Source: Sacculina carcini (lineage: Eukaryota > Arthropoda > Thecostraca > Sacculinidae). From it: DNA of 64,000 nt. Numbering within the stretch: the first letter of the stretch is position 1; each line of letters opens with the position of its first letter. The notes under the pieces are model-generated. The model saw only the letters and a list, made by a program, of their open reading frames with translations, had not been told where the DNA came from and ran no database searches. Positions 4,288 to 63,998 of this stretch are shown in pieces. The stretch spans positions 8,602,663 through 8,666,662 of the forward strand of contig OU696579.1 of assembly GCA_916048095.2 (NCBI GenBank). Reading direction: 5' to 3'. Position numbers and translations under genes: made by a program.

Positions 4288-4576
4288 ACCCTTTACCCCC
4301 ATATGAGGACCCCTTTACCCCCATATGAGGACCCCTTTAGCCCATATGAGGTCCCCTTTAGCCCATATGAGGTCCCCTTTACCCCATATGAGGCCCCTTT
4401 TAACCCCGTATGAGGTCCCTCTTACCCCATATGGGTCCTTTTTACCCCCATATGAGGACCCCTTTACCCCATATGAGGTCCCTCTTACCCCATATGGGTC
4501 CCTTTTACCCCCATATGAGGACCCCTTTACCCCATATGAGGACCCTTTTACCCCCATATGAGGACCCCTTTACCCC
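4288..4576. repeat. Minisatellite, CCCCATATGAGGACCCCTTTA units
   Basis: About a dozen imperfect 21-22-bp units alternating between GAGGACCCC, GAGGTCCC and GGGTCC versions. It is open in several frames (translating as SSYGVKG or TPYEVPL repeats), which is a by-product of the unit. It would fall in the first intron of the candidate secreted gene at 4600-4930. Confidence 0.9.
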
Positions 4577-4599
4577 GGGAGGTGCTGGGGTAAACTCAC

Positions 4600-4930
4600 T
4601 GTGGCTTCGCAGCGCCGACTGAGAAAAGGCAGCCCGTAGTCCCGGATATCTGCTGATTGCGCGGGCACGGACGTCATTGTTGTTGGCACTGTTCACCGTT
4701 ACTCCTGGCCTTCGAGGACCTGACTGACTGGAGTACGTGGTCGACCTGACAGCGGTGTCTGCCGCGGGGGTGTGTCTGTCACGTGACCCCGCCCCCGCCA
4801 CCGCATGCACGGTGTTGACATTGTTCGAGATTGTCGTGCCTGGAGGCCAGCTGCGACCGCTGCAGCTGCTCATCAAGATGACTGCCACCATCACCAGCTG
4901 TACGTACACCACGCCTCGCCAGCACAACAT
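4600..4930 (-). CDS. Candidate first exon of a secreted protein (hypothetical)
   Basis: Unrecognised. The frame from ATG at 4930 opens with a clear signal-peptide-like stretch: about 20 hydrophobic residues ending MSSCSG, then a polar Ser/Thr/Arg-rich chain of about 85 residues. A good TATA box (TATAAATA) lies only 31-38 bp upstream of the ATG, and a strong donor (ACA|GTGAGT) follows base 4600, so this could be exon 1 of a spliced gene; the open frame beyond 4600 runs into a minisatellite. Just after the predicted cleavage site comes TTISNNVNTVHAV, reminiscent of the Asn motif ending the Cys-rich peptides encoded at 5769, 12456 and 12851. It also lies head-to-head with 5769-5987. No second exon was identified, so it may equally be a chance open frame. 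The leader implied by the TATA position is very short, which counts against this ATG. Confidence 0.35.
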
Positions 4931-5768: not shown

Positions 5769-5987
5769 ATGAAGACCGCTTGTGTGCTGATGATGTTATG
5801 TTTGGCCGTGCTGCTTGTCACGAGCGCACGCGCCGCCGATGAGGACCACTGCTGGACGCGCTGCTGTTCGAGGAGCGTGTGCCAGAGCAGGTGCATCAAA
5901 CGCTGCTTGACCGGCCGCGTGCATGTCGCCTGCAAACAGATCACGGTTACCAACAACAACGTGAATAAGGCGGTGGCGATCGCCTAG
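5769..5987 (+). CDS. Secreted Cys-rich cationic peptide 1 (novel family)
   Basis: A 72-residue intronless precursor; the start is MKTACV, chosen because it gives a classical signal peptide (about residues 1-22, ending SARA) and sits about 85 bp after a TATA-like box. The mature part is about 50 residues with seven cysteines in the order C-X3-CC-X4-C-X3-C-X3-C-X8-C, several Arg/Lys (net positive), and a cysteine-free tail with the motif TVTNNNVN before a hydrophobic Ala/Val end. The same framework and tail are encoded at 12205-12456 and 12851-13096, so this is a real, locally duplicated gene family. CX3C pairs suggest a disulfide-linked helical hairpin (inference). The odd cysteine count, without the C-terminal Cys of its paralogues, could allow a disulfide-linked dimer. 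Function unknown; antimicrobial, venom-like or signalling roles are possible. I do not recognise a named family. Confidence 0.8.
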   Translation: MKTACVLMMLCLAVLLVTSARAADEDHCWTRCCSRSVCQSRCIKRCLTGRVHVACKQITVTNNNVNKAVAIA

Positions 5988-6078
5988 CAGTGAACACACG
6001 CTCTTCTCTTGTGGTTCCCGGGTACCAGGTGGTTCCTGTATCGGCTTGTATTGGTACAAGTGTTGCTATTGGCTTTGA

Positions 6079-6084
6079 AATATA
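6079..6084 (+). terminator. Possible variant poly(A) signal of peptide gene 1
   Basis: No AATAAA is seen downstream of the stop at 5987; AATATA, a weaker variant, lies about 90 bp after it and is followed by a GT-rich stretch (TTGTGTGTTTGTGT). Confidence 0.3.
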
Positions 6085-6237
6085 CGGTTGATTGTGTGTT
6101 TGTGTCGTTTATCGTGGAAATGCGCAATGCGTGCTCGTTGAGTTGAGTTTTGTTGGTTCGAATTGTGTTTTTATTGCGAACAAGCAGAAAGAGCATGCAC
6201 AATTTACTCACGTGAAATTATCTCACATTAATTGTGA

Positions 6238-6480
6238 ATTTTAACGGAGACTACCCCATTTGAGACATGGACTATTTGAGACAAACCTCACGGCCGCTCT
6301 CAACCTCTACATAATCCGACCCGTGCCATGGGCGCGGCAAGACCGTACCGGAGTTAAAAGTGCACGCTTGAGACAATCCGCTAGAGGACGCTGAAACTGG
6401 CCGTTTGAGACAAAAAGCGAGAGTGCGGGAAATTCGCTAGGCAGAGCCTGTGATAATAAGCCGTTCCTCGCGGTTAACGT
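6238..6480 (+). repeat. Dispersed TTTGAGACA repeat, copy 1
   Basis: About 245 bp containing four copies of (T)TTGAGACA or CTTGAGACA and the block GAGGACGCTGAAACTGG. An inverted copy lies at 10081-10370 with GAGGGCGCTGAAACTTGG and GTTTGAGACA in the same order. It begins about 250 bp downstream of Cys-rich peptide gene 1. No coding potential; element type unknown. Confidence 0.65.
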
Positions 6481-6533
6481 TGTACACTTGACGCAACGGA
6501 GTCTAAATATACGCCGCCATATTTCACTTCTTT

Positions 6534-6618
6534 GAATATATTCACTTATTTATATAGTGAATATATTTACTTATTTATATAGTGAATATATTTACTTATT
6601 TATATAGTGAATATATTT
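6534..6618. repeat. 26-bp tandem repeat with palindromic units
   Basis: About three copies of TATTTACTTATTTATATAGTGAA. The CACT...AGTG ends of each unit are inverted, so units can fold as short hairpins. Confidence 0.8.
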
Positions 6619-7195
6619 ACAGCACTAGCATTAGCATCCTTCTTACAATTCCTTACACTTTGGCATCTGCTTCTCATCTTTTCACTTCCTCTTCATCCTT
6701 TAGTAGATTTTCATCCTCACTTTCATCGTAAATATCTTTTTGCTAAATCTTTTGATCCCACTTCTCGCACTCTTACACCTTACGCTTCCCTATGACTCTA
6801 ATTTACAATTACTTATGTTTTTACTTATTTTCATTTTATTTATCTCCATTTTTATTTTGTTTTTTCTTTTCTGGGAATTTTCTACTTCTTTTCTCACATC
6901 TTGATATCGTGTACTGTTGTTTCTCATTGTTGTCTCTTTCGCGCTTGTTTCTGTGTGAGCGCTATACAAATACATTGTTGATGTTGTTGCTTCCACTTGC
7001 CAAGAAATCAATAAATAAGGAAACGAATAATTAGTTTTCAGTTCTGTGCAAAGCGAATTCGAGAAAAACACCGATAGACCGTTTATATCACGGTTTGACA
7101 TTATACAGCCACCATCAGTTGATTAATTTACTCATTCCCTAACCCAATAGAAAGCCAAAACAAATAAAATATCAATTGTACTAAGTACTATTATT

Positions 7196-7235
<40 letters not shown>

Positions 7236-7542
7236 TTGGTGGTTGTGAATGAATTAAAACTCAACAATGGTGTTCTTGATATTTTACGGCAAAAATCAGA
7301 AAACAAATGAAAACAATATCATTTATCACATATATTCACACGAATTCATCACATGTAACAAAATGATGGTTGAGAGATGCGCGCCGTCGACTCTGAAAGA
7401 GGATAAATATGCACAAAAACAACCCAAAACATTAGTCAAAAGTCAAGACAGTCAATTCAGTAAAATATGAAATTGAATACAATAACAGCTAACCTATACA
7501 GTAATATTGTACTACAACAACACATTGCAACATTGCATAGCA
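6619..7542. other. AT-rich non-coding DNA with a TA run
   Basis: A (TA)n run occupies about 7199-7231. Open frames of 60-100 codons here are compositionally driven (Phe/Leu/Ser-rich from pyrimidine-rich DNA) and unsupported. Confidence 0.5.
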
Positions 7543-7705
7543 AATGACTCTGTCTGCAAGACTATTTACGTAGCATAGACACATTACAAAGTAACACATG
7601 CAACATGAACATAATAACACGGCACCCTAAGCCAGACAGAGCAAATGGCTCTGTCTGCAAGACAATTTACGTAGCATAGACACATTACAAAGTACAAAGT
7701 AACAA
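7543..7705. repeat. Pair of direct repeats about 100 bp apart
   Basis: The block CTCTGTCTGCAAGACxATTTACGTAGCATAGACACATTACAAAGTA occurs at about 7549-7593 and again at about 7645-7690, with one or two differences; both copies are preceded by GCAAATG. A simple local duplication. Confidence 0.85.
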
Positions 7706-7845
7706 AAACATATACTTACAGAGCGAGACTCAAACTCGATACCCACGGGCAAGTGACCGCATCAACCTTTTTGCCTGCCGCCGCGATAGCCCGGTGTCAC
7801 AGAACCGCTTCAACGGGCACGTCACCGGAACAATCGGCGGCGGCG

Positions 7846-8516
7846 GCAGCTGTTGTGTCGGTAAAAACGCCGGCGGCAGCTGCTGTGTCGGCACGAACGT
7901 CGGCGGCAGCTGTTGTGTCGGTACAAACGCCGGCGGCAGCTGCTGTGTCGACACTATTGGCGGCGGCAGCTGTTGTGTCGGTACAAACGCCGGCGGCAGC
8001 TGCTGTGTCGGCACGAACGACGGCGGCAGCTGCTGTGTCGACACTATTGGCGGCGGCAGCTGTTGTGTCGGTACAAACGCCGGCGGCAGCTGCTGTGTCG
8101 ACACTATGGGCGGCGGCAGCTGTTGTGTCGACACAATCGGCGGCTGCAGCTGTTGTGTCGACACAATGGCCGGCGGAAGCTGTTGTGTCGGTACAAACGC
8201 CGGCGGCAGCTGCTGTGTCGAGACTATTGGCGGCGGCAGCTGTTGTGTCGGTACAAACGTCGGCGGCAGCTGCTGTGTCGGTACAAACGTCGGCGGCAGC
8301 TGCTGTGTCGGCACGAACGCCGGCGGCAGCTGCTGTGTCGACACTATTGGCGGCGGCAGCTGTTGTGTCGGTACAAACGCCGGCGGCAGCTGTTGTGTCG
8401 ACACTATTGGCGGCGGCAGCTGTTGTGTCGACACAATCGGCGGCGGCAGCTGCTGTGTCGGCACGAACGCCGGCGGCAGCTGTTGTGTCGGTACATACGC
8501 CGGCGGCAGCTGTTGT
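7846..8516. repeat. GC-rich 30-bp minisatellite, about 22 units
   Basis: Units of exactly 30 bp, built around CGGCGGCAGCTGTTGTGTCG plus a variable ten (GTACAAACGC, ACACTATTGG, GCACGAACGC). Because 30 is a multiple of three and the unit lacks stops, five of six frames stay open: plus frames give GGSCCVGTNA or AAAVVSVQTP repeats and the minus frame gives a QQLPPAFVPT repeat ending in a unique Arg-rich tail at 7730. No frame has an ATG, signal peptide or splice context that singles it out, so I annotate DNA structure, not a protein. It is the only long GC-rich tract nearby and lies between the Cys-rich peptide genes. Confidence 0.9.
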
Positions 8517-9067
8517 GAAAATATATATATTGCTAGTATCCAACGATGTTACCACTAGTGTTTAATGATGACATTACTAGTATTCAATTCGCACATTGAA
8601 AATTTACATGTAGGTGAAGAATCAGATGACCAAGCCAGAATGTACCAGACACCGAAATCGAAACCAATAAAGCACTTGAATATTTCGCAATTAATGAAAT
8701 CCAAGTAATCCAGATCATATGATATAACTTTACTTACCGATACTGAGCAAATACAAAGACGCAGAAATATCCAACAACGAGACACAACGAAACACGACGA
8801 CACAAGAACACAGCGACGCAACCAATGAAACACGTGACAAGTCACAAACGGAAGTTCACCTAATAAGTGTGATGAAAGTGTCCTTGTCACTTATAATATG
8901 TCACTTCAAAAATAATATAACAAATAGCTTAATTTTTAATAATTTTTATGATCAATGGTATAAATAATATGATTAAAATAATACTCTGAAACGTATTGCT
9001 TATCATTATTAACGAAATTAAAATCTTATTTCAAATATTAAATTTTAGAGCTTACTCAGCTTACGAG
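8517..9067. other. AT-rich non-coding DNA
   Basis: No gene, tandem repeat or mobile-element signature recognised. A 111-codon minus frame at 8555-8890 has no supporting feature. Confidence 0.5.

Positions 9068-9147
<80 letters not shown>
9068..9147. repeat. (TA)n microsatellite
   Basis: About 40 uninterrupted TA dinucleotides. Confidence 0.98.
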
Positions 9148-9150
<3 letters not shown>

Positions 9151-10080
9151 ATTAATTTGTTTCAGAATTTACTGAAAGTTTTTCTATTTAATAAATATAA
9201 CGTTATAAAATCAATAGAATATGTTGAAATATTTCAGTAAACGAAAGGAAACACATTTGCCAAATTAACAATTTCCTGGGGCCAATTCCTACACACTATT
9301 GAATTCCTCGTAGATAGTGTATAGTGTCAAGTGCAGCCTATCCATACTGCCATTCTCATTCTCAAAACTTACAACTTCCTGATAAACAGAAATACATATG
9401 TAATGATATAATTGAACTTGAACTTGAATTGAACTATAATTGAACTTGAACTTGAATTGAACTATAATTGAACCATTTATAAACAAAGCAATTAATCATC
9501 TTTTTGAGCTCATTACAGCCACGGCTAACTATTAAAACTACCGCTTCTTACTGTTGAAAAACGGCACCAACTGTGTCGTGAAAATGTGTTCAAGGAAAGG
9601 TAAGGAATAGAAAAGAAAGGTAAGAAAGAAAGAAAGAAAGGAAAGGTACAACAATACTGAAATAAATGTATATTATTTAAAGTTAATTGCTGTGTCAGGT
9701 AAATTAAATTTTACCGTTTTCTAGTATCATATCGTTCATAAATGAGTTTCATTTCATGATGCGACTTGTCGCATTCACATTTGGAAGAGTCGTGTACTAT
9801 AACAAGCCGATGAGCCTTTAAAACACTAATGATGACCAGTATATTCATATTCATTGACATTTCATTATTGCCAGCGCTCGCGTGCTTAATTGAACCCTTT
9901 TCTCATAACCCATGCTAATAACGGTGTTAATACTGAAGCCGCGACTACTCGATGCATACTAGTTTATAACGTGAAATAATTCTTATATCTATCGCAAATA
10001 CAAATCACAGTTTCATATTCATCGCTTCATTTATACTGCGCTAACACGACGACTGTTTACATGTTTGTTATCTCAACCGG
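9148..10080. other. AT-rich non-coding DNA with a short tandem repeat
   Basis: A roughly 30-bp unit (ATAATTGAACTTGAACTTGA) is repeated near 9408-9475. Otherwise no feature is supported. Confidence 0.5.
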
Positions 10081-10370
10081 ATATTCACGCCCGCGTTTTG
10101 ACACCTAGGGGACGATCTGTGTGAGTTGCGCTCGCTTCCCTTACTCGCTCTTTCCCCGACGCATTCTATGCCCTCGGGCGTTCTGTCTCAAACGCCAAGT
10201 TTCAGCGCCCTCTGTAGGATGTCAACTTTTACCTCCATCACAAGTGTAACCTGTGTGCGCCTATGCTGCCTGCCGGATTAGGACGGCACAGAGAGAGTAT
10301 GAGAGCGCAAGGAAATGTTGTCTCAAATAGACTTTGTTCCAATTGGGGCCATGTCCCATTTTAACGCTTG
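10081..10370 (-). repeat. Dispersed TTTGAGACA repeat, copy 2 (inverted)
   Basis: Reverse-complement relative of 6238-6480: on the minus strand it carries CTATTTGAGACAAC, GAGGGCGCTGAAACTTGGCG and TTTGAGACAGAACG in the same order and similar spacing. It lies downstream of Cys-rich peptide gene 2 in that gene's direction, as copy 1 lies downstream of gene 1. Confidence 0.65.
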
Positions 10371-12104
10371 AAAATGTGATCAGTAGGGTTGGGAATTTTA
10401 TGTTATAATTTTCGGCGTTTTATGTTTTTATTACGTGACGAAAAATTCCAAAATTATTTGTTCAAAATTATCAAAATATGTTATTCAATTTCACATATGC
10501 GAATTTCGGACTCTTTCATAGAGTATTTGTATTTCATGCATGTATCCAGCGACATTCTATTGGGAAACTACCCTTAGGGAGGCGACATGTTTTCCTAGGC
10601 AAATTCAACTTCACGTTGAATTCCTTTAACCCTTTGAGCGTGAAGATACACTACAGACAGACAACATTCGAGGAATTTGTGTTGAATTATTTCCCAAAAT
10701 GTAACTATGAAGTACATGTATGATCCTACCTTCCTAAAATGCCAATGGCACGTGTAGCTTGGAGCGATTGAATCACACCAATTTATCCACAAATCATACG
10801 GTAGTTAACCAGGAATATAACACCGTGCTACGCTCTTGGTGTCCAGACTTGAGAAGCTATCAGGAACGTTCCAATATTTCCATTGTTAGCGTTGCTGGCG
10901 TTAATATTGTACCTATATACAGTGTTTGAGTGTATCATAACATCCTAAATCCGTGATTTGTGTAATTTCAATTATTAAACAGATGCATTAATTCAAAACA
11001 CAACATATATAATTATATATTTGGACATTTTTAAGTGGAAATGGCATTTTATGTTTTTTTTCATTAAAAACGGCATTTTATGTGAAAAAATATTTTTTTG
11101 TGTGATCACATAAAATTCCCAACTCTAGTAATCAGATTAGAAGTAAATAAATCACTTATATACTCCCATATTTCGAATGCTTCTCTACATTTTGTTGTTT
11201 TATGGCATTTTACAAAAGACATATATAGTCGACGATAAAAAATATAGTTCGCTTTGCTCAATACAATCGCATTTGCTTCTCAACGTTTTTTGAGAATCAA
11301 TTAATTTAATTTAAATAACTTTATTGTTTTAGAATCCGTAACTGCGTGGATTTTTATACCAGTAATATATTATTTCAATTTCACTAGAGTATTCATAAAG
11401 AAAAGGAATTCTAAAGCACACAGACATATATTCTGGGGGTATGGGGGTATATATACCCCGACAAATTGGCTGGGGGTATGAATATGGAATTATACCCCAG
11501 ATGATTCTGCTCAGTTTAATTCATTGTGTATATTATCATCAAAATAAGTATAGCAAAAACGAAAAATACACTACAAATGTGTTTATGCAATTATATGCAA
11601 TATACTTCTCATTGAGGTAAGTGTGTTGTAATTGACTAGGCATAAAATAGTTGAGGGTCTCATGTAATTGACCAACTGAGTCAACTTTGAACAATAATGC
11701 AGGATGGCTGTCATCCCCCCGAGCCTCGACGCAAATCTACGCCCTTGCTTATAAACAAGAATATAATATATTTTGCTACGAATGTCTTTTACATCGTGAG
11801 TTTGTGAGGCAATTTCTAACTTCGAACATGCTCTCTCAGTAAACACTTATATATTTATTTTCGCCACTCATATACTCATATTTACGCCGTTCATATATTT
11901 TATCAATATATACTTATTTGTACACTTATACATTTATTATATGGGTATCCAATCATAAAATTTTCCAACTACAATTTCGGTAATTTTGTTGCAAATTTAG
12001 TCCGAATTAGACGGACACTTTTTAGAGAGACATTTTCAATTTTATGTGTATTTATTGTTGTGTCCAGGCAGTACGATTGATCACACAGTAAACACACAAT
12101 ACGT
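10371..12104. other. AT-rich non-coding DNA
   Basis: About 1.7 kb without a supportable gene. GGGTATGGGGGTATATATACCCC near 11436-11460 is a small inverted repeat, and a TTTTATGT-rich tract at about 11046-11110 resembles the sequence near 10394-10430. Open frames are short and unsupported. Confidence 0.5.
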
Positions 12105-12110
12105 TTTATT
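12105..12110 (-). terminator. Poly(A) signal of Cys-rich peptide gene 2
   Basis: AATAAA on the minus strand, 95 nt after the stop codon at 12205. Confidence 0.6.
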
Positions 12111-12204
12111 CAGCGCTTGAAAGCATCGTTTGTGCATCGTTGCTGCTTGTCGGTCGATGTGTGAATGTTTTCTGGCCGAAAGTTTCAGCGTTTTAGGGCA
12201 TTCA

Positions 12205-12456
12205 CTAACAAGCCTCTGCAGCTACCTGGTTCACGTTATTGTTGTTCACCACGACGCTGCACCCTGCTGGCTTGAAATGAGTCTGACACACTCGAATGCA
12301 TCTGCGTAGCTTGCGCCGGCGATTTCTTGTATCCACCGTATACTTGCTGCACAGATCGCTGCAATGAGAATGTGCGATGGCCTTCGGCAGGAGATTAAAA
12401 GACAGCAGCATCCCCAAGAGACATACAATCAGAAAATTCAGCTTGAAAGTGTTCAT
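12205..12456 (-). CDS. Secreted Cys-rich cationic peptide 2 (novel family)
   Basis: An 83-residue intronless precursor; MNTFKL is preferred over an upstream in-frame Met because it starts a typical signal peptide (about residues 1-28, ending KAIA) and lies about 60 bp after a TATA box. The mature part has the spacing C-X3-C-X16-C-X3-C-X8-C, then VVVNNNNVNQ and a terminal Cys. Relative to peptides 1 and 3 the two central cysteines are missing and that loop is a strongly basic Arg/Lys stretch, but the outer CX3C pairs, the X8 spacing and the Asn motif are kept. Six cysteines including the C-terminal one give even parity. C-X3-C...C-X3-C is the signature of disulfide-clamped helical hairpins (family knowledge); that fold is inferred here. 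It is transcribed divergently from peptide gene 3, with the two TATA boxes about 250 bp apart. Function unknown. Confidence 0.8.
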   Translation of the reverse strand: MNTFKLNFLIVCLLGMLLSFNLLPKAIAHSHCSDLCSKYTVDTRNRRRKLRRCIRVCQTHFKPAGCSVVVNNNNVNQVAAEAC

Positions 12457-12516
12457 ATTTGAGTTGCACACTCACACGAATGAATTTCAATAGTGACGGT
12501 GACGCATGGTCGCTTC

Positions 12517-12538
12517 AATTTATAACTTGCTTTGTCAA
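12517..12538 (-). promoter_or_regulatory. Promoter of Cys-rich peptide gene 2
   Basis: On the minus strand TTGACAAAGCAAGT runs directly into TATAAATT, with further TTGAC copies upstream (CATTGACAAA at 12548-12557, TGACATTGAC at 12561-12570). It matches the block in front of peptide genes 1 and 3. Confidence 0.65.
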
Positions 12539-12746
12539 CATTTTCTGTTTGTCAATGCCAGTCAATGTCACATCTGCCATTATACATTCTGTCGTTGAAT
12601 TGAATGACGGGCTTATGTCACACCACGATTAAATTGCACACTTTGCGAAACTGGCAAGTCAACTTCACTGGCCCAATTTACACTCTAAACAAGCGACAAT
12701 TACGATTACGATAGAACGCTCAATTTGTTGCTATTATTCGCTGACA

Positions 12747-12780
12747 TTGACAAGATGCACTGCGGCGGCGGTTATATAAG
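12747..12780 (+). promoter_or_regulatory. Promoter of Cys-rich peptide gene 3
   Basis: TTGACAAGATGCACT is followed by a GCGGCGGCGG spacer and TTATATAAG, about 75 bp before the start codon. It belongs to the divergent promoter region shared with peptide gene 2. Confidence 0.65.
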
Positions 12781-12850
12781 GCTGAACGCACTGTCGAATA
12801 AATTAGCTGAACACACGACGAACTTACGCGACAAACAGGAGTGTGTGGGC

Positions 12851-13096
12851 ATGTATTGTGGCGCGCTTGCAAGACTGGCGTTGATCGTGTCTGTTGCAAT
12901 GTTGCTGGCACGAGAGACGGAGGCTGATTTCCACCCGGGTCCTGCGTGTTTTGTCGCTTGCTGCCGAGGACAAAAATGCCCTCAAAAATGCCTCAGGGGC
13001 TGCATCCGGGAGTACGGCGAGGCTATTTGCACAGATGTTATCATCAACAACAACAACACCAACATTGCATTTGCGTCGGCAGGTTGCACCGGCTAG
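12851..13096 (+). CDS. Secreted Cys-rich peptide 3 (novel family)
   Basis: An 81-residue intronless precursor. The frame is open upstream, but MYCGAL at 12851 is chosen: it begins a signal peptide (about residues 1-25, ending ETEA), and the earlier Met at 12755 lies before the TATA box. The mature part has C-X3-CC-X4-C-X3-C-X3-C-X8-C, exactly the spacing of peptide 1, then DVIINNNNTN and an AGC end, giving eight cysteines. Outside the cysteines, Gly/Gln/Lys choices differ widely between the paralogues, so spacing and Asn motif are what selection seems to keep. Net charge is only slightly positive, unlike peptides 1 and 2. It lies between divergent gene 2 and the convergent astacin gene. Function unknown; a secreted effector, toxin-like or antimicrobial peptide are all possible. 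Confidence 0.8.
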   Translation: MYCGALARLALIVSVAMLLARETEADFHPGPACFVACCRGQKCPQKCLRGCIREYGEAICTDVIINNNNTNIAFASAGCTG

Positions 13097-13218
13097 AAAA
13101 AGTCCAACTGTCAGAGCTATCCAACGATGCTGCCTCACTTCCCAGCACTATGTTTAATGCGGGCACATCATCAGTTTTGTCTTTTGTCTGATGATCAAAC
13201 CATGCAATTATCGTGCGA

Positions 13219-13224
13219 AATAAA
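13219..13224 (+). terminator. Poly(A) signal of Cys-rich peptide gene 3
   Basis: AATAAA about 125 nt after the stop at 13096. Confidence 0.6.
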
Positions 13225-13420
13225 TACGCGTGAAAATGTTTTAAATAGCACATGTGCTTATCTGCGTTATCGCGCAGTATTGCTCCAATTTGAGTGCTGT
13301 TTTTGAGCTTGTAAATTCATAAACCTCATAAGTTTTTTGGACGCAATTTACCACGTGCTTATGCTGCTCTAGCTTACTGCTGGTGCTTGAGCTGCGGCTA
13401 GAGGTAATTGTTAAATTTCG

Positions 13421-13466: not shown

Positions 13467-14702
13467 TCACTGCGCCAAATAGGCAAACGAAAGCGTCATA
13501 ATTAGAGGCAACAAGAGCGTGCTCGTTCTCGACTCATTCAGCGTGTTGTGCGCCCGACTTGGGCTGCCCACACTGTGTGGTGATATAGCGGACCGTGTAA
13601 CACTCGAGCACTGAGCACAAGAACGTCTGCAGTGGACCAGCATGTAGTTGGGATTTGCACGACATTCTCCCGTGCTAGCCCACCAGGCACAGTTGGCGTG
13701 GCCGTCTTGACAGTCGCCAGTAGAAGTGTGGGGCGAGTGAGGCTGTGGCGTTGCCGTGACATCGGAGCAGCCGTAGAGCAGGTTCAGCTTGCGCACGTCG
13801 CTGGCACTGAGGCCGCGACGCTGTCCCATTTGCTTTGCGTCGACTGTCGACACCGGACTTATCGTCGGATATCGGGGATTGGTGGCGAACGCGAACGGTC
13901 CGTAGTGCATAATCGACCCTGTATCGTAGGGCTCGGTGAGCACGCGACGCTGGTGCCAAGTGTACTTCTGGAAGTTGGATTGTCGCTGCGACTTGATGTT
14001 GTTCCAGTGAATGGTCACGTGCTGGTCTCGATCAGGTCGCGACTGCTCGTGCCAGAAGCCGGCCGCGTGCATGAACTCGTGCTGAATGGTGCCCGTATGA
14101 ACGCAGCCGTCCGCCAGCGACACACGCTGTCTGCCTCCTTGTCGTCCGACCGCCGACGAGCACCCATCACCTCGAACCACGAGCACGTGATCCGTGCTGC
14201 CTGGGTCCTGCGATGTCGAGGGTCTCCAGGGCTTTACTTGCAGGCACGAGACCCGAGCAAAAGCGGCTACGGCAGCCTCAATTGTTGCACTTTCAGTCGA
14301 CGTAAAGTCGCTGGAAATGATGTACGGAATGATATTGTCGCGCCACAGAAACGATTCATCGGCCACGACGTGTCCAGACCTCAGCGGCGAGGAGCACACC
14401 TCTGGCAAAATGATGTCGCCTTCAAAGTTGTCTCCTCCTTCACGCAGAGCCCAGACAGCGTGAGCACGCCTGGTGTGTGCCGATGGTGTAGCAGTTCGTG
14501 CCGATATCACCACAGACTCGTTGTTAGCGGCCGTTGAGTCAGCGTCACCGAAGGTCGATTCATTAACGGAGTGAAGGAACGAACGAAATACGTTGCAACT
14601 TCGAAATGTAGCTGCATTTTGAACACTGGATATTGTCTCAAATGTAATCATCATTCCGACAATCAACAACCAATGATTTCGCTTGAAAACCAAGAACGTC
14701 AT
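13467..14702 (-). CDS. Secreted astacin metalloprotease with ShK domain
   Basis: A 411-residue M12A zinc metalloendopeptidase in a single exon. Start 14702 is preferred over an upstream in-frame ATG (14831) because it opens directly into a signal peptide; the upstream part lies in a TG-rich repeat. In order: signal (about 1-27); propeptide with the FEGD aspartate switch at 93-96 that plugs the zinc site; catalytic domain from about 120 with HEFMHAAGFWHEQSRPDRD at 208-226, which supplies the three zinc histidines and catalytic Glu, and the Met-turn SIMHYG at 263; the usual four disulfide cysteines (153, 181, 200, 312); a six-Cys ShK domain at 331-365; then a Ser-rich linker and a hydrophobic 15-residue end (about 395-409) that could be a GPI or membrane anchor. 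All catalytic residues are present, so it should be active. It converges with Cys-rich peptide gene 3. Whether it processes those peptides is speculation. Confidence 0.94.
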   Translation of the reverse strand: MTFLVFKRNHWLLIVGMMITFETISSVQNAATFRSCNVFRSFLHSVNESTFGDADSTAANNESVVISARTATPSAHTRRAHAVWALREGGDNFEGDIILPEVCSSPLRSGHVVADESFLWRDNIIPYIISSDFTSTESATIEAAVAAFARVSCLQVKPWRPSTSQDPGSTDHVLVVRGDGCSSAVGRQGGRQRVSLADGCVHTGTIQHEFMHAAGFWHEQSRPDRDQHVTIHWNNIKSQRQSNFQKYTWHQRRVLTEPYDTGSIMHYGPFAFATNPRYPTISPVSTVDAKQMGQRRGLSASDVRKLNLLYGCSDVTATPQPHSPHTSTGDCQDGHANCAWWASTGECRANPNYMLVHCRRSCAQCSSVTRSAISPHSVGSPSRAHNTLNESRTSTLLLPLIMTLSFAYLAQ

Positions 14703-45776: not shown

Positions 45777-46805
45777 TCAGTTGTCTTTTTTCTGCATCTC
45801 CCTGTGTTGCAGCAGTCGCATGATCGCCTGGTTCCACGAGCGATGCTGCCACAATATGGCCAGGCGCAGCAGCGGCCAGCAGAACAGCTGCGCCAGCACT
45901 TGCACGAAGCTGTTGGCCGGCGCAGCTGCCAGCGCCAACGTCGAGCTGATGAAACCCTCGAGGCCGAGCGTGCAGCTGAAGCGGCCGCACATGGTATCAT
46001 CGAGCAGCTGCTGGGCCATGCGGTCGGCGGTCGCCAGGCCTGCGCTCTCACACACCAGCCGCGTCTCGTCGGGCTTGTCGCGGTTCTCGGTGGCGAAGCC
46101 GGGAGTGTCGGTGTCGGGAGGACAGCACACGGTCACCGACACGCCATAAGCTCGCACCTCTTGCTGCAACACCTCGGCCAGACCGACCAGTGCGAACTTG
46201 GAGGCGCAGTAGCCCGAGAACCCCCACAATCCCACCAGTCCGCCCAGTGAGGACACGACACACACGCGGCCCGCACGACGCTCACACATGGCCGGCACGA
46301 GCGCGTGCAACACGTGCATGGCGCCGAAATAGTTGACGTCCATGAGCCGCCGGTGCTCAGACACGCTGAGCTGGTCAAAACGGCGCGCCACGGCATATCC
46401 GGCGCAGCAGATGAGCGTGTCGACAGGTTGTCCCAGATGTTGCTGGGCTCGCTGCACGGCGGCCGCCACGATGGAAGGATCGGCCGCCACGTCGCACGAG
46501 ATAGTTGCCACGCGCTGCTGCACCGTCGTCTCATCTTCGTGCAGGGCGCCACCTGCCGCCGCTACTTGTCGCTTCGCCGCCGCCAGCCGCTGCTCGTCCC
46601 GCGCCACTATTGTCACACGTGCGCCGTATTTGGCGGCCAGCACGGCCACACTGAGACCGATGCCGCTCGAGCCGCCCGTCACCAGCACGTGTTGTCCACG
46701 AAGTCGCCTCCTACCCGCCGCCACGGCCAGGCGACGCCACAACACGTGCGTCGCGACCGCCACGCACAACACGCACGAGACCAACACCCAGCACGCAGCC
46801 CACAT
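45777..46805 (-). CDS. KDSR: 3-ketodihydrosphingosine reductase
   Basis: A 342-residue short-chain dehydrogenase/reductase in one exon. The enzyme reduces 3-ketodihydrosphingosine to dihydrosphingosine with NADPH, the second step of de novo sphingolipid synthesis, on the cytosolic face of the ER. Start 46805 is chosen because it gives the hydrophobic N-terminal anchor (about 1-22) expected of KDSR; an upstream in-frame ATG (46901) begins in a CA repeat. Visible motifs: cofactor loop VTGGSSGIG (42-50), CCAGYA (133-138), Asn158, SS at 185-186, catalytic Tyr199 and Lys203 in GYCASKFA, and the family-specific PPDTDTPGFATENRDKPDET (229-248), which separates KDSR from other SDRs. The C-terminal hydrophobic region (about 295-320) is also typical. 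Length matches the human enzyme closely (about 332). The GC-rich coding sequence contrasts with its AT-rich surroundings. No intron is seen, unlike vertebrate KDSR. Confidence 0.95.
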   Translation of the reverse strand: MWAACWVLVSCVLCVAVATHVLWRRLAVAAGRRRLRGQHVLVTGGSSGIGLSVAVLAAKYGARVTIVARDEQRLAAAKRQVAAAGGALHEDETTVQQRVATISCDVAADPSIVAAAVQRAQQHLGQPVDTLICCAGYAVARRFDQLSVSEHRRLMDVNYFGAMHVLHALVPAMCERRAGRVCVVSSLGGLVGLWGFSGYCASKFALVGLAEVLQQEVRAYGVSVTVCCPPDTDTPGFATENRDKPDETRLVCESAGLATADRMAQQLLDDTMCGRFSCTLGLEGFISSTLALAAAPANSFVQVLAQLFCWPLLRLAILWQHRSWNQAIMRLLQHREMQKKDN

Positions 46806-54558: not shown

Positions 54559-57500
54559 TATAATATATCTATAATCTAATGTATGAGTACAGGACGATCA
54601 TAAATACACAAACACACACGCACATACAAAATGTATACTAAACCTAGTGATCTAGTGATCTAGTATGCACACAGAAAGACAAAAAATTGTCTGGTGTAAT
54701 GGTAGACAGCGGTAACTCAGGACATCAAGACATCAAGCATACAACAACACTAATTGCCCATCAAACAGGATATATAGCAGTGTTTCTCAACCGTTCCCAG
54801 CGCTAGCACCTCCATTATAACAGCAGTCAGTTCAAGCAGCGCCTATATTCTTGATAATTATATAGAAAAATATACAAACACTAACGACGTAATAATAAAA
54901 CTTTATTATTCAATATTCATTCATACAACTCCTTTGAGAGAATCAAGCAAAACTACGTTTTTCAAGAAAAATATAATGCATATGTTAAACATATAATTTC
55001 TTTAAAAATTCACAGAGCACTTACACCCCATAGGATGCAGATTAGCACCCCCGGTTAAGAGCCCTGGTCTATAGCTACAATAGTTGACTCAAATGCATAT
55101 AAGGATACGTATGTTTAACCAGGGTTTGTGTGCGGGTATTAGGGTGTAAGAATGTGTGTGAGTTAGACTGACAGCGGGCAGTTGGTGAGTGGAGCAGTTT
55201 CGAGTCAGGGCGGACGAGCCAGGCCGTCGAGGACGTCTTGTGCCACGACCCTCACCCGCCACACCGATGTTGGACGAGGAGCGAGCGCGAAACTCTCCTC
55301 CATTAACAGCAGCAGCAGCGCCTACACTCTGATGTCCACTGAAACTGTGCACGCGCGCACGAGCCCCGCCTGTCCCCCCACCTCCCCCTCCTCCTCGCTC
55401 CATTTCCAACTGACAACGCTGCTGGTGATAACTGTCGTACAATTTGGCTCCATACTGACATACACAAACACGACCGGCAATCTACACCACAAGCGTAGAT
55501 ACTATTGCAAACGCTGTTGCTACCAATGCCGGAACACAGATAGGAAGCGAAACACACACATATACTTATCTGACAACACTACATCACTATGAGAGTCCAG
55601 CAAGTTGAGAAACTGATAACTGATAAAACAGGCTCAGTTTGCAAGCGACAGGAACAGTTTACGATAACAACAGAAAGACACAGTATGAACACAGCAGAAA
55701 GATACAATATGAACACAACAGAAAGATACAGTATGAACACAACAGAAAGATACAGTATGAACACAACAGAAAGACACAGTATGAACACAACAGAAAGATA
55801 CAGTATGAACACAACAGAAAGATACAGTATGAACACAACAGAAAGATACAGTATGAATACAACAGAAAGATACAGTATGAACACAACAGAAAGATACAGT
55901 ATGAACACAACAGAAAGATACAGTATGAATACAACAGAAAGATACAGTATGAATACAACAGAAAGACACAGTATGAACACAACAGAAAGATACAGTATGA
56001 ACACAACAGAAAGATACAGTATGAACACAACAGAAAGATACAGTATGAATACAACAGAAAGATACAGTATGAACACAACAGAAAGATACAGTATGAACAC
56101 AACAGAAAGATACAGTATGAACACAACAGAAAGATACAGTATGAACACAACAGAAAGATACAGTATGAATACAACAGAAAGATACAGTATGAACACAACA
56201 GAAAGACACAGTATGAACACAACAGAAAGACACAGTATGAACACAACAGAAAGACACAGTATGAACACAACAGAAAGACACAGTATGAACACAACAGAAA
56301 GATACAGTATGAACACAACAGAAAGACACAGTATGAATACAACAGAAAGATACAGTATGAACACAGCAGAAAGATACAGTATGAACACAGCAGAAAGACA
56401 CAGTATGAACACAACAGAAAGACATAGTATGAATACAACAGAAAGACACAGTATGAACACAACAGAAAGACACAGTATGAACACAACAGAAAGATACAGT
56501 ATGAAGACAACAGAAAGACACAGTATAAATACAACAGAAAGATACAGTATGAACACAACAGAAAGACACAGTATGAACACAACAGAAAGATACAGTATGA
56601 ACACAACAGAAAGACACAGTATGAACACAACAGAAAGATACAGTATGAACACAGCCGAAAGACACAGTATGAACACAGCAGAAAGATACAGTATGAACAC
56701 AACAGAAAGATACAGTATGAACACAACAGAAAGACACAGTATGAACACAGCAGAAAGATACAGTATGAACACAACAGAAAGATACAGTATGAACACAGCA
56801 GAAAGACACAGTATGAACACAACAGAAAGACACAGTATGAAGACAGCAGAAAGACACAGTATGAACACAACAGAAAGATACAGTATGAACACAACATAAA
56901 GACGACGGTCTGGCGCACCTTTGCTAGTCGCAGGGCGGCCAGCCAGCATCGTCGTGCCGAGGCCGAGTCGCAGGCGAGACAGCGCAGTTGACTGGCAGCT
57001 GACTGGCCGAGCTGGTCGTCGTCGCTGTTATCGCTCGTTGTTCGACACAACACGACAGCCAGGTCACAGGGAGACTTGAAGTCGCGGCGTGCATTATCGG
57101 CCGAGTATACGGCGTGTTCATCAAGTCGTGCAAATTGTGTCATCTGCGTCACATCCGTCTCATTGCCACAATCCATCGCCTCCTGTAACAAACACGCCAT
57201 CAGCCAGACATCAACTGCAAGGCTCAAATTGACCTTGTTTCATGTTATGCTTGTGAATATGTAGTGTGATTGTGTGCAGTGAGAGAGTGTGTGTGAGAGA
57301 TTGTGTCTACGTTGACTGAGATTATGTGTGCGTGAACGTGTTAATGTGTGATCGTGTACAGTTGAATTGCGTATTGCGTGCGAGAGTGTATGAGCGAGTG
57401 TGTATAGTTGTTGTTGTTGTTCCTCAGGTTGTCTGGCCGAGCAACCTCGAGTGTGTTTAGTTGTGTATAGCTGTGTGTGTATGCGTTTGTGAATTGTCCA

Positions 57501-62721: not shown

Positions 62722-62771
62722 GATATCAGAAGTTTGTTCTTACGTGTCATCACAACTTGACTTCGGCAGCA

Positions 62772-63998
62772 CTAACACAGCACTGACTTCTCACTAATAA
62801 TATCAGCCTTCTCACTAACACTATCAGCCCTCTCACTATCATCCTTCTCACTAACACTATCATCCTTCTCACTAACACTATCAGCCTTCTCACTAACACT
62901 ATCAGCCTTCTCACCATCAGCCTTCTCACTAACACTATCAGCCTTCTCACTAACACTATCAGCCTTCTCACTAACACTATCAGCCTTCTCACTAACACTA
63001 TCAGCCTTCTCACTAACACTATCAGCCTTCTCACTAACACTATCAGCCCTCTCACTATCAGCCTTCTCACTAACACTATCAGCCTTCTCACTAACACTAT
63101 CAGCCTTCTCACTAACACTATCAGCCTTCTCACTAACACTATCTTCCTTCTCACTAACACTATCAGCCTTCTCACTAACACTATCATCCTTCTCACTGAC
63201 ACCATCAGCCTTCTCACTAACACTATCAGCCTTCTCACTAACACTATCATCCTTCTCACTAACACTATCAGCCTTCTCACTAACACTATCAGCCCTCTCA
63301 CTAACACTATCAGCCTTCTCACTAACACTATCAGCCTTCTCACTAACACTATCATCCTTCTCACTAACACCATCAGCCTTCTCACTAACACTATCAGCCT
63401 TCTCACTAACACTATCATCCTTCTCACTAACACTATCAGCCTTCTCACTAACACTATCAGCCTTCTCACTAACACTATCAGCCCTCTCACTAACACTATC
63501 AGCCTTCTCACTAACACTATCAGCCTTCTCACTAACACTATCAGCCTTCTCACTAACACTATCAGCCCTCTCACTAACACTATCAGCCTTCTCACTAACA
63601 CTATCAGCCTTCTCACTAACACTATCAGCCTTCTTACTAACACTATCAGCCTTCTCACTAACACTATCTTCCTTCTCACTAACACTATCTTCCTTCTCAC
63701 TCTCTACATCATCAGTGTCCTCACCAATGTGCGAATTTTCTTCTTCATTAGTTTCACCTTCACGTTGTGTTTCATCGATTTCTTCATTAATCTCGGATAC
63801 ACCATGGTCCTCTGCTTCTTGCTGTTGTTCTCTCTGATCAGAGGTTTCTTCATCATGACACGAAATATCCGGTTCATTCTGGACGTGAGGCGTGTGTTCG
63901 TCGAGTTTTCTTTCACCAGCAGTCTCTGATGAACCAATATCGATGGTGCCAACGTGCCGGTCATTGACCTCTTCCTGATCCACCTCTTCCTCTTCCAT
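62772..63998 (-). CDS. Acidic heptad-repeat protein, 5' end possibly outside window
   Basis: A 408-residue open frame from an ATG two bases inside the window edge, so the true start may lie beyond it. Residues 1-105 are strongly acidic and non-repetitive (EEEEVDQEEV, SHDEET-like Glu/Asp/Gln-rich segments). About 40 copies of the seven-residue unit SVSEKAD follow, then the short end DIISEKSVLC. Variants stay charged (SEKDD, SERAD, SEKED, SKKAD), and every indel, including the short units DSERAD and DGEKAD, is a multiple of three, which suggests the frame is under selection. Val and Ala recur with 4-3 spacing, compatible with a long coiled coil or amphipathic helix, though Glu-Lys-rich disorder is also possible. 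A poly(A) signal follows at the right place. No signal peptide is visible in what is present. I do not recognise the family. Confidence 0.65.
   Translation of the reverse strand: MEEEEVDQEEVNDRHVGTIDIGSSETAGERKLDEHTPHVQNEPDISCHDEETSDQREQQQEAEDHGVSEINEEIDETQREGETNEEENSHIGEDTDDVESEKEDSVSEKEDSVSEKADSVSKKADSVSEKADSVSEKADSVSERADSVSEKADSVSEKADSVSEKADSVSERADSVSEKADSVSEKADSVSEKDDSVSEKADSVSEKADGVSEKDDSVSEKADSVSEKADSVSERADSVSEKADSVSEKDDSVSEKADSVSEKADGVSEKDDSVSEKADSVSEKEDSVSEKADSVSEKADSVSEKADSVSEKADSERADSVSEKADSVSEKADSVSEKADSVSEKADSVSEKADSVSEKADGEKADSVSEKADSVSEKDDSVSEKDDSERADSVSEKADIISEKSVLC
62783..63715. repeat. 21-bp minisatellite (coding), about 42 units
   Basis: AGTGTTAGTGAGAAGGCTGAT-type units on the minus strand, forming the heptad region of the overlapping gene. 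Unit-to-unit identity is very high, so the array is probably polymorphic in length. Confidence 0.95.

Follow-up and report, generated by a model that had tools for sequence, protein, structure and literature searches.

Three short genes of Sacculina carcini and an apparently new small family of cysteine-rich peptides with an asparagine motif

In a 64,000-nucleotide stretch of the Sacculina carcini genome (positions 8602663-8666662 of contig OU696579.1, our C11; hereafter the window), three short single-open-frame genes, numbered 1 to 3 and located in Table 1, each encode a small cysteine-rich precursor. Do they belong to one family, and what might their products do? An original prediction, made from the letters of the window, had proposed a family of secreted peptides with an asparagine-rich tail. 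Our comparisons indicate that the three genes are homologous and constitute a real small family, which is apparently a new orphan within a known kind of secreted peptide. The reading that we favour, with a probability of about 0.45, is that of a small cluster of paralogous genes for secreted peptides combining a helical hairpin with an Asn-tipped loop, most likely used in defence or in other contacts with foreign organisms.

Translation of the three open reading frames (ORFs) gave the products previously described. In all three precursors, the N-terminus is hydrophobic in the manner of a signal peptide, with a peak of hydropathy, and the peptides are probably secreted. Cleavage sites were estimated by eye; the mature chains follow from these estimates, and their net charge was counted as K+R-D-E. 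The framework C-X3-CC-X4-C-X3-C-X3-C-X8-C was confirmed in peptides 1 and 3, and peptide 2 does lack two central cysteines as had been claimed, its pattern being C-X3-C-X16-C-X3-C-X8-C. The gap between the two CX3C steps counts 9 residues in peptides 1 and 3, where it includes the two extra cysteines, and 16 in peptide 2. The asparagine motif was found in all three peptides, but in the form [VI]-[TN]-NNN-[VT]-N, and not with the [TVI] first reported at its first position. The original prediction had overlooked an additional C-terminal cysteine in peptides 2 and 3, with which the mature chains of peptides 1, 2 and 3 contain respectively 7, 6 and 8 cysteines. The order of elements is the same in the three peptides: a signal-like start, CX3C...CX3C-X8-C, 3-4 residues, then the Asn motif, whose NNN begins 6, 5 and 6 residues past the last framework cysteine in peptides 1, 2 and 3.

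Are the three genes related by descent? Whole-genome searches covered 264 Mb in 43 contigs, and local ORF searches covered, in six frames, the window and twenty 10-kb stretches, amounting to 252 kb after overlaps. In the whole-genome protein search, gene 1 as a query retrieved gene 3 with an expectation (E) value of 6.2e-4, and gene 3 retrieved gene 1 at E 3.0e-3. With the mature chains alone, these values were respectively 6.0e-3 and 1.3e-2, and BLASTP between the two proteins gave E 3e-4, a value valid for that single comparison. Gene 2 was connected to this pair by hhalign: a profile of genes 1 and 3 matched it at E 3.7e-7, with a probability of 93%, over 32 columns that include the Asn run.

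Shuffling of the mature chains gave z scores of 11.9 (peptides 1 and 3), 4.8 (1 and 2) and 8.3 (2 and 3). With cysteines held in place, z was 4.5, 4.2 and 6.5 for the same pairs, and with both Cys and Asn positions held it was 2.2, 2.2 and 3.0, the real score being reached by 68, 91 and 23 of 3000 shuffles. Because z drops when these positions are held, most of the pairwise signal lies in the Cys/Asn frame itself. As to the frequency of this frame, 0.0004 occurrences of the seven-cysteine framework were expected among six-frame ORFs of the 252 kb, and four ORFs were observed: genes 1 and 3, a second count of gene 1 through a locus that overlaps the first, and a TG-repeat ORF. At the DNA level the Asn motif alone is not distinctive, since its 21-base version occurs at 426 places in the genome, versus 83 for the reversed pattern.

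DNA similarity among the three loci is nearly lost. Blastn of locus 1 against loci 2 and 3 returned four pieces, the best one being 21 bp long (E 0.028) and situated where genes 1 and 2 encode the Asn motif, and no piece was returned between loci 2 and 3. A DNA search with positions 12100-13250 matched only itself. Among aligned residues, 31 of 45 differ between peptides 1 and 3, 27 of 44 between 1 and 2, and 29 of 44 between 2 and 3. Between genes 1 and 3, the first, second and third codon positions differ in 20, 22 and 31 of 45 codons, i.e. 31/45 at third positions versus 42/90 at the other two together. The excess at third positions had one-sided Fisher p values of 0.011 (genes 1 and 3), 0.098 (1 and 2) and 0.034 (2 and 3), a pattern which fits coding constraint and an old duplication. 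The rapid divergence of the original prediction, if understood as positive selection, is not upheld: the codon differences are those of ordinary coding constraint near saturation. Its mention of different synonymous codons in the Asn motif applies to gene 2, where one AAT is present, but not to the NNN of genes 1 and 3, which is AAC AAC AAC in both. Over the aligned region, identical residues are encoded by different codons in 5 of 14 cases (genes 1 and 3), 9 of 17 (1 and 2) and 8 of 15 (2 and 3).

The search for further members gave none. With a profile of the three genes, no fourth member was found in the 252 kb, the next-best hit having E 0.17 and reversed-sequence controls reaching E 0.20 at best. 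Searching the whole genome with one sequence at a time did not add a member either; each of these searches scored only two or three candidates, so that more distant members could be missed. Two loci retrieved in this way were discarded, as their translations lack the framework: one on contig C19 (L005, E 0.16 with gene 2 as a query), the other on C29 (L007, E 4.6 and 1.7 with gene 3 queries, one stop). A screen of the 252 kb for ORFs with a signal-like start and a Cys-rich chain gave 21 rows. Four of them were the three genes, gene 1 appearing twice; none of the other 17 had the framework, and many were, by eye, TG-repeat or hydrophobic sequences. An ORF at 4505-4930 (-), with a signal-like start and a TISNNVNTVHAVAGAG stretch, was considered as a fourth member and rejected: against the tail profile it scored E 20 as a whole and E 4 for its best stretch, within the noise given by the best reversed control (E 2.6). 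This ORF also has a TATA-like box 38 bp upstream and NN-rich stretches (TISNNVNTVHAVAGA and VTVNSANNNDV) that resemble the peptide tails, and it extends into a CATATGGGG-type tandem repeat.

We also compared the three proteins with known families. In line with the original prediction, which knew the Asn tail from no named peptide family, Pfam gave no match above cut-off for E values up to 10 (the filters of HMMER drop most matches weaker than about 0.1). Two hits below the cut-off were rejected: New_glue (E 0.75), which covers no more than residues 1-24, and Phage_lambda_P (E 0.086). NCBIfam gave no match, which says little because this library is bacterial and archaeal. Among PDB sequences nothing was significant, every match having E 0.28 or higher. 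A literature search for the Asn-run module returned no related paper, matches to the motif letters being judged by title among those listed.

The type of cysteine pattern is, for its part, a known one. That CX3C...CX3C often marks disulfide-clamped helical hairpins, as had been proposed, is in print: according to a section of PMC7191063, in alpha-hairpinins, Xn lies between two CX3C steps, and the pairing is Cys1-Cys4 and Cys2-Cys3. Peptides 1-3 share CX3C-Xn-CX3C with these plant defence peptides, e.g. EcAMP1 and VhTI. However, plant alpha-hairpinins, as portrayed in parts of PMC7191063 and in the abstract of PMC11591084, consist of the four motif cysteines and unstructured ends, whereas the present peptides have 6-8 cysteines and add an inner pair (genes 1 and 3), the cysteine after X8 and the Asn-rich segment. 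Moreover, alpha-hairpinins are from plants and the present family is from an animal, and no sequence match was found between them.

In animals, the kappa-KTx and CS-alpha-alpha peptides of scorpions have the same CX3C-Xn-CX3C spacing, and kappa-KTx 5.1 (2ndd_A) appeared as a non-significant PDB match (E 2.6 in a profile search, and E 3.5). We know of no Asn module in kappa-KTx. These peptides are also shorter (26 residues for 2ndd), with two or three disulfides according to part of PMC11722136. We do not file the three peptides as members of the hairpinin or CS-alpha-alpha groups, because of their 6-8 cysteines, their Asn module and the lack of any sequence relation found. Animal relatives of the helical-hairpin kind have two to four disulfides, as summarized in the same portion of PMC11722136, where acrorhagin I of a sea anemone and neurotoxin B-IV of a ribbon worm are described with two helices and four disulfides, as we propose for peptide 3. 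Neither was among the PDB sequence matches, and the likeness was drawn from the helices and disulfides described. Arthropods have helical disulfide-rich peptides of their own in CHH/ITP and the HAND toxins derived from them (the latter in an excerpt of PMC5577568); none of these gave a Pfam match with the three proteins for E up to 10.

From these elements, a model of the peptides can be proposed. Each gene would give a secreted two-part peptide of about 5.5-6.3 kDa. The first part would be a helical hairpin with one CX3C step per helix, cross-linked first-to-fourth and second-to-third. In the products of genes 1 and 3, a third rung would be placed inside the hairpin, linking the second cysteine of the CC pair to the one that follows X4. 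These two cysteines are precisely the ones absent from peptide 2, as if one whole disulfide had been lost. The second part would be a loop or beta-hairpin with the Asn run at its tip. In peptides 2 and 3 it would be closed by a disulfide joining the last framework cysteine to the C-terminal one. The stretch so closed counts 16 residues in peptide 2 and 18 in peptide 3, and its midpoint falls, in both peptides, at the junction of NNNN and [VT]N. Because the midpoints coincide there, we infer that the Asn run does not belong to a free tail but forms the tip of a loop or beta-hairpin closed by a disulfide. The C-terminal cysteine makes the number of cysteines even in peptides 2 and 3; in peptide 1, since this partner is absent, the last cysteine would be free or engaged in a dimer. 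The tail has a beta propensity slightly higher than that of the core in all three peptides (1.16 v 1.04, 1.11 v 1.02 and 1.06 v 0.99 for peptides 1-3), and its alpha propensity exceeds that of the core, by little, in two of the three. A possible alternative for the tail is an Ala-rich helix past the Asn run.

From one paralog to the next, the Cys frame and the Asn tip stay constant and the rest of the exposed surface would change, as expected of a stable extracellular scaffold with changing surfaces. Such peptides would most likely serve in chemical defence, or in some other dealing with foreign organisms: microbes or, should the animal be a parasite, its host. The Asn tip might be a conserved contact or folding element. 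The net charges of peptides 1 and 2 (+5 and +7) fit a cationic antimicrobial role. A more specific proposal would restrict this two-module family to one crustacean lineage, with a fast-changing clamped hairpin and a conserved, disulfide-closed, Asn-tipped beta-hairpin as a fixed binding or assembly element. A barnacle, parasitic or sessile, would use these peptides against microbes or against its host. Taken in full, we hold this proposal to be unlikely.

Several observations weigh against the favoured interpretation, at the level of the family, of the fold or of the role. The whole-genome search with gene 2 as a query matched neither gene 1 nor gene 3, and gene 2 was missed when these two were the queries. 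BLASTP links gene 2 to gene 3 only weakly (E 0.11), and the Asn run may inflate the score of the match between the profile and gene 2. No homologue was found in another species: none of 14 word-sharing candidates reached E <= 10 in a set of 5.8 billion proteins, by a method that needs shared 5-residue words, and this set includes Pollicipes and Amphibalanus, which are distant here (about 45-55% identity on two enzymes). Concerning the fold, a section of PMC7191063 warns that a cysteine pattern alone cannot predict it; the number of cysteines in gene 1 is odd, and simple propensities leave the structure of the tail undecided. Peptide 3 is nearly neutral (+1), which argues against a simple cationic antimicrobial role. 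Lastly, the TATA and poly(A) signals around the genes are matches to a consensus, and those of gene 1 are variants.

Among other explanations, the first in rank, improbable as we judge it, is that the peptides are host-directed effectors, or venom-like peptides, secreted by a parasitic barnacle of the rhizocephalan sort. S. carcini is a rhizocephalan, with a published draft genome of 298 Mb (PMC9582164, in part). Venoms contain helical-hairpin peptides with two to four disulfides (in the same portion of PMC11722136), and 852 classical excretory/secretory proteins were predicted in Peltogaster reticulata, as reported in a part of PMC9664023.

Improbable too, and second in rank, is an adhesive or structural function in cement, cuticle or egg coat, in which V-x-V-NNN-V-N-x-A-x-A would be a self-assembling beta strand (an Asn ladder), with the Cys part acting as a cross-linker. 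Cys-rich proteins are known constituents of barnacle cement. The title of PMC5099703 names silk-like ones. The animal is barnacle-like (thecostracan), the segment combines beta-forming residues with Asn and Ala and has the slightly raised beta propensity given above, and the unpaired cysteine of gene 1 could form cross-links. However, the modules are short and single, not repeated, and the alpha propensity of the tail is raised likewise in two of the three peptides. Furthermore, no relative was found in a protein set that contains barnacle proteins, and no cement protein was among the PDB sequence matches.

The peptides might also be lineage-specific hormones or receptor ligands, for instance far-diverged relatives of the CHH/ITP neuropeptides, which we regard as quite doubtful. 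The source is a crustacean, the peptides are small and disulfide-rich, and the last cysteines of CHH/ITP are spaced C-X3-C-X8-C as in the three peptides, but the remaining cysteine spacing differs. No hormone family was among the Pfam matches for E up to 10, most weak ones being dropped by the HMMER filters, and a strong divergence between paralogs would be unusual for a conserved hormone. Finally, that the genes are non-functional, being either paralogs in decay or ORFs that arose by chance and happen to have a signal-like start, would agree with the failure of the word-sharing search to find a homologue outside this genome, but is very improbable given that the frames, the Cys frame and the Asn motif were kept though DNA similarity is nearly lost, that third codon positions show an excess of differences, and that the framework occurs far above chance.

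The features of the three loci are collected in Table 1. Upstream of the genes, TATAAA precedes the ATG of gene 2 by 68 bp, and the TATA-like box TATATAAG precedes that of gene 3 by 78 bp (both, like the poly(A) signals of Table 1, are consensus matches, without chance control). Gene 1 has a TATA-like variant at 90 bp, weaker than the boxes of genes 2 and 3 and likewise a consensus match only.

Table 1. Positions of the three genes and of associated features, numbered from the first nucleotide of the window.
Feature	Position	Strand	Remarks
Gene 1	5769..5987	+	72-amino acid precursor; mature chain of about 50 amino acids; 7 Cys; net charge +5
Gene 1, predicted signal peptide	5769..5834	+	estimated cleavage past residue 22 (SARA); hydropathy peak
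Gene 1, Asn motif NNNVN	5952..5966	+	
Gene 1, possible poly(A) signal, variant AATATA	6079..6084	+	91 bp past stop; weaker than in genes 2 and 3
Gene 2	12205..12456	-	83-amino acid precursor; mature chain of about 55 amino acids; 6 Cys, the C-terminal residue among them; net charge +7
Gene 2, predicted signal peptide	12373..12456	-	estimated cleavage past residue 28 (KAIA); hydropathy peak
Gene 2, Asn motif NNNNVN	12229..12246	-	
Gene 2, AATAAA	12105..12110	-	94 bp past stop; first of several within 400 bp
Intergenic stretch, genes 2 and 3 head-to-head	12457..12850		394 bp; TATA-like box toward each gene
Gene 3	12851..13096	+	81-amino acid precursor; mature chain of about 56 amino acids; 8 Cys, one of them close to the C-terminus; net charge +1
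Gene 3, predicted signal peptide	12851..12925	+	estimated cleavage past residue 25 (ETEA); hydropathy peak
Gene 3, Asn motif NNNNTN	13046..13063	+	
Gene 3, AATAAA	13219..13224	+	122 bp past stop

The next gene (13467-14702, -) encodes an astacin metalloprotease in a single open frame; this protein has a ShK domain, and its C-terminus is hydrophobic. Its two best matches are from Pollicipes pollicipes, with identities of 52% and 48% across roughly two thirds of the query, followed by Amphibalanus (45-47%). As a query, it gave 19 matches in the genome at E <= 1e-5, including its own gene, and as 17 of these 19 lie in open frames of more than 400 amino acids, long uninterrupted frames are ordinary in this genome. 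Some of the astacin matches are near one another, on C18, C36 and C2. Further along the window, at 45780-46799 (-), is a 3-ketodihydrosphingosine reductase gene, for which Pollicipes is the second-best named match (55% identity over 72% of the query); among the best 8000 word-sharing candidates scored, a leafhopper entry and two unnamed metagenome proteins outscore it. Both genes suggest a thecostracan source; a search of the assembly for COX1 gave no match.

The window also contains tandem repeats that are open in several frames. Long ones at 55574-57239 and 62750-63929 are open on both strands (NTTERYSM-type and VRRLIVL/SLTLSAF-type) and yield nine listed ORFs of 187-526 amino acids, which are probably spurious. 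Another one, at 7675-8565, has five listed open frames, three on the + strand and two on the - strand (e.g. SCCVGTNAGG and QQLPPAFVPT), probably spurious as well; one of them, rich in cysteine, might pass for a secreted protein.

As it stands, the cluster of genes 1-3 is one more lineage-specific family of Cys-rich peptides, of the sort that genomes often reveal. If expressed, it would extend the list of candidate disulfide-clamped helical hairpins by an animal family whose Asn-run module is unmatched in Pfam, NCBIfam and PDB sequences. And if the animal is a parasitic barnacle, the three peptides would be concrete candidates for contact with its host or with microbes.

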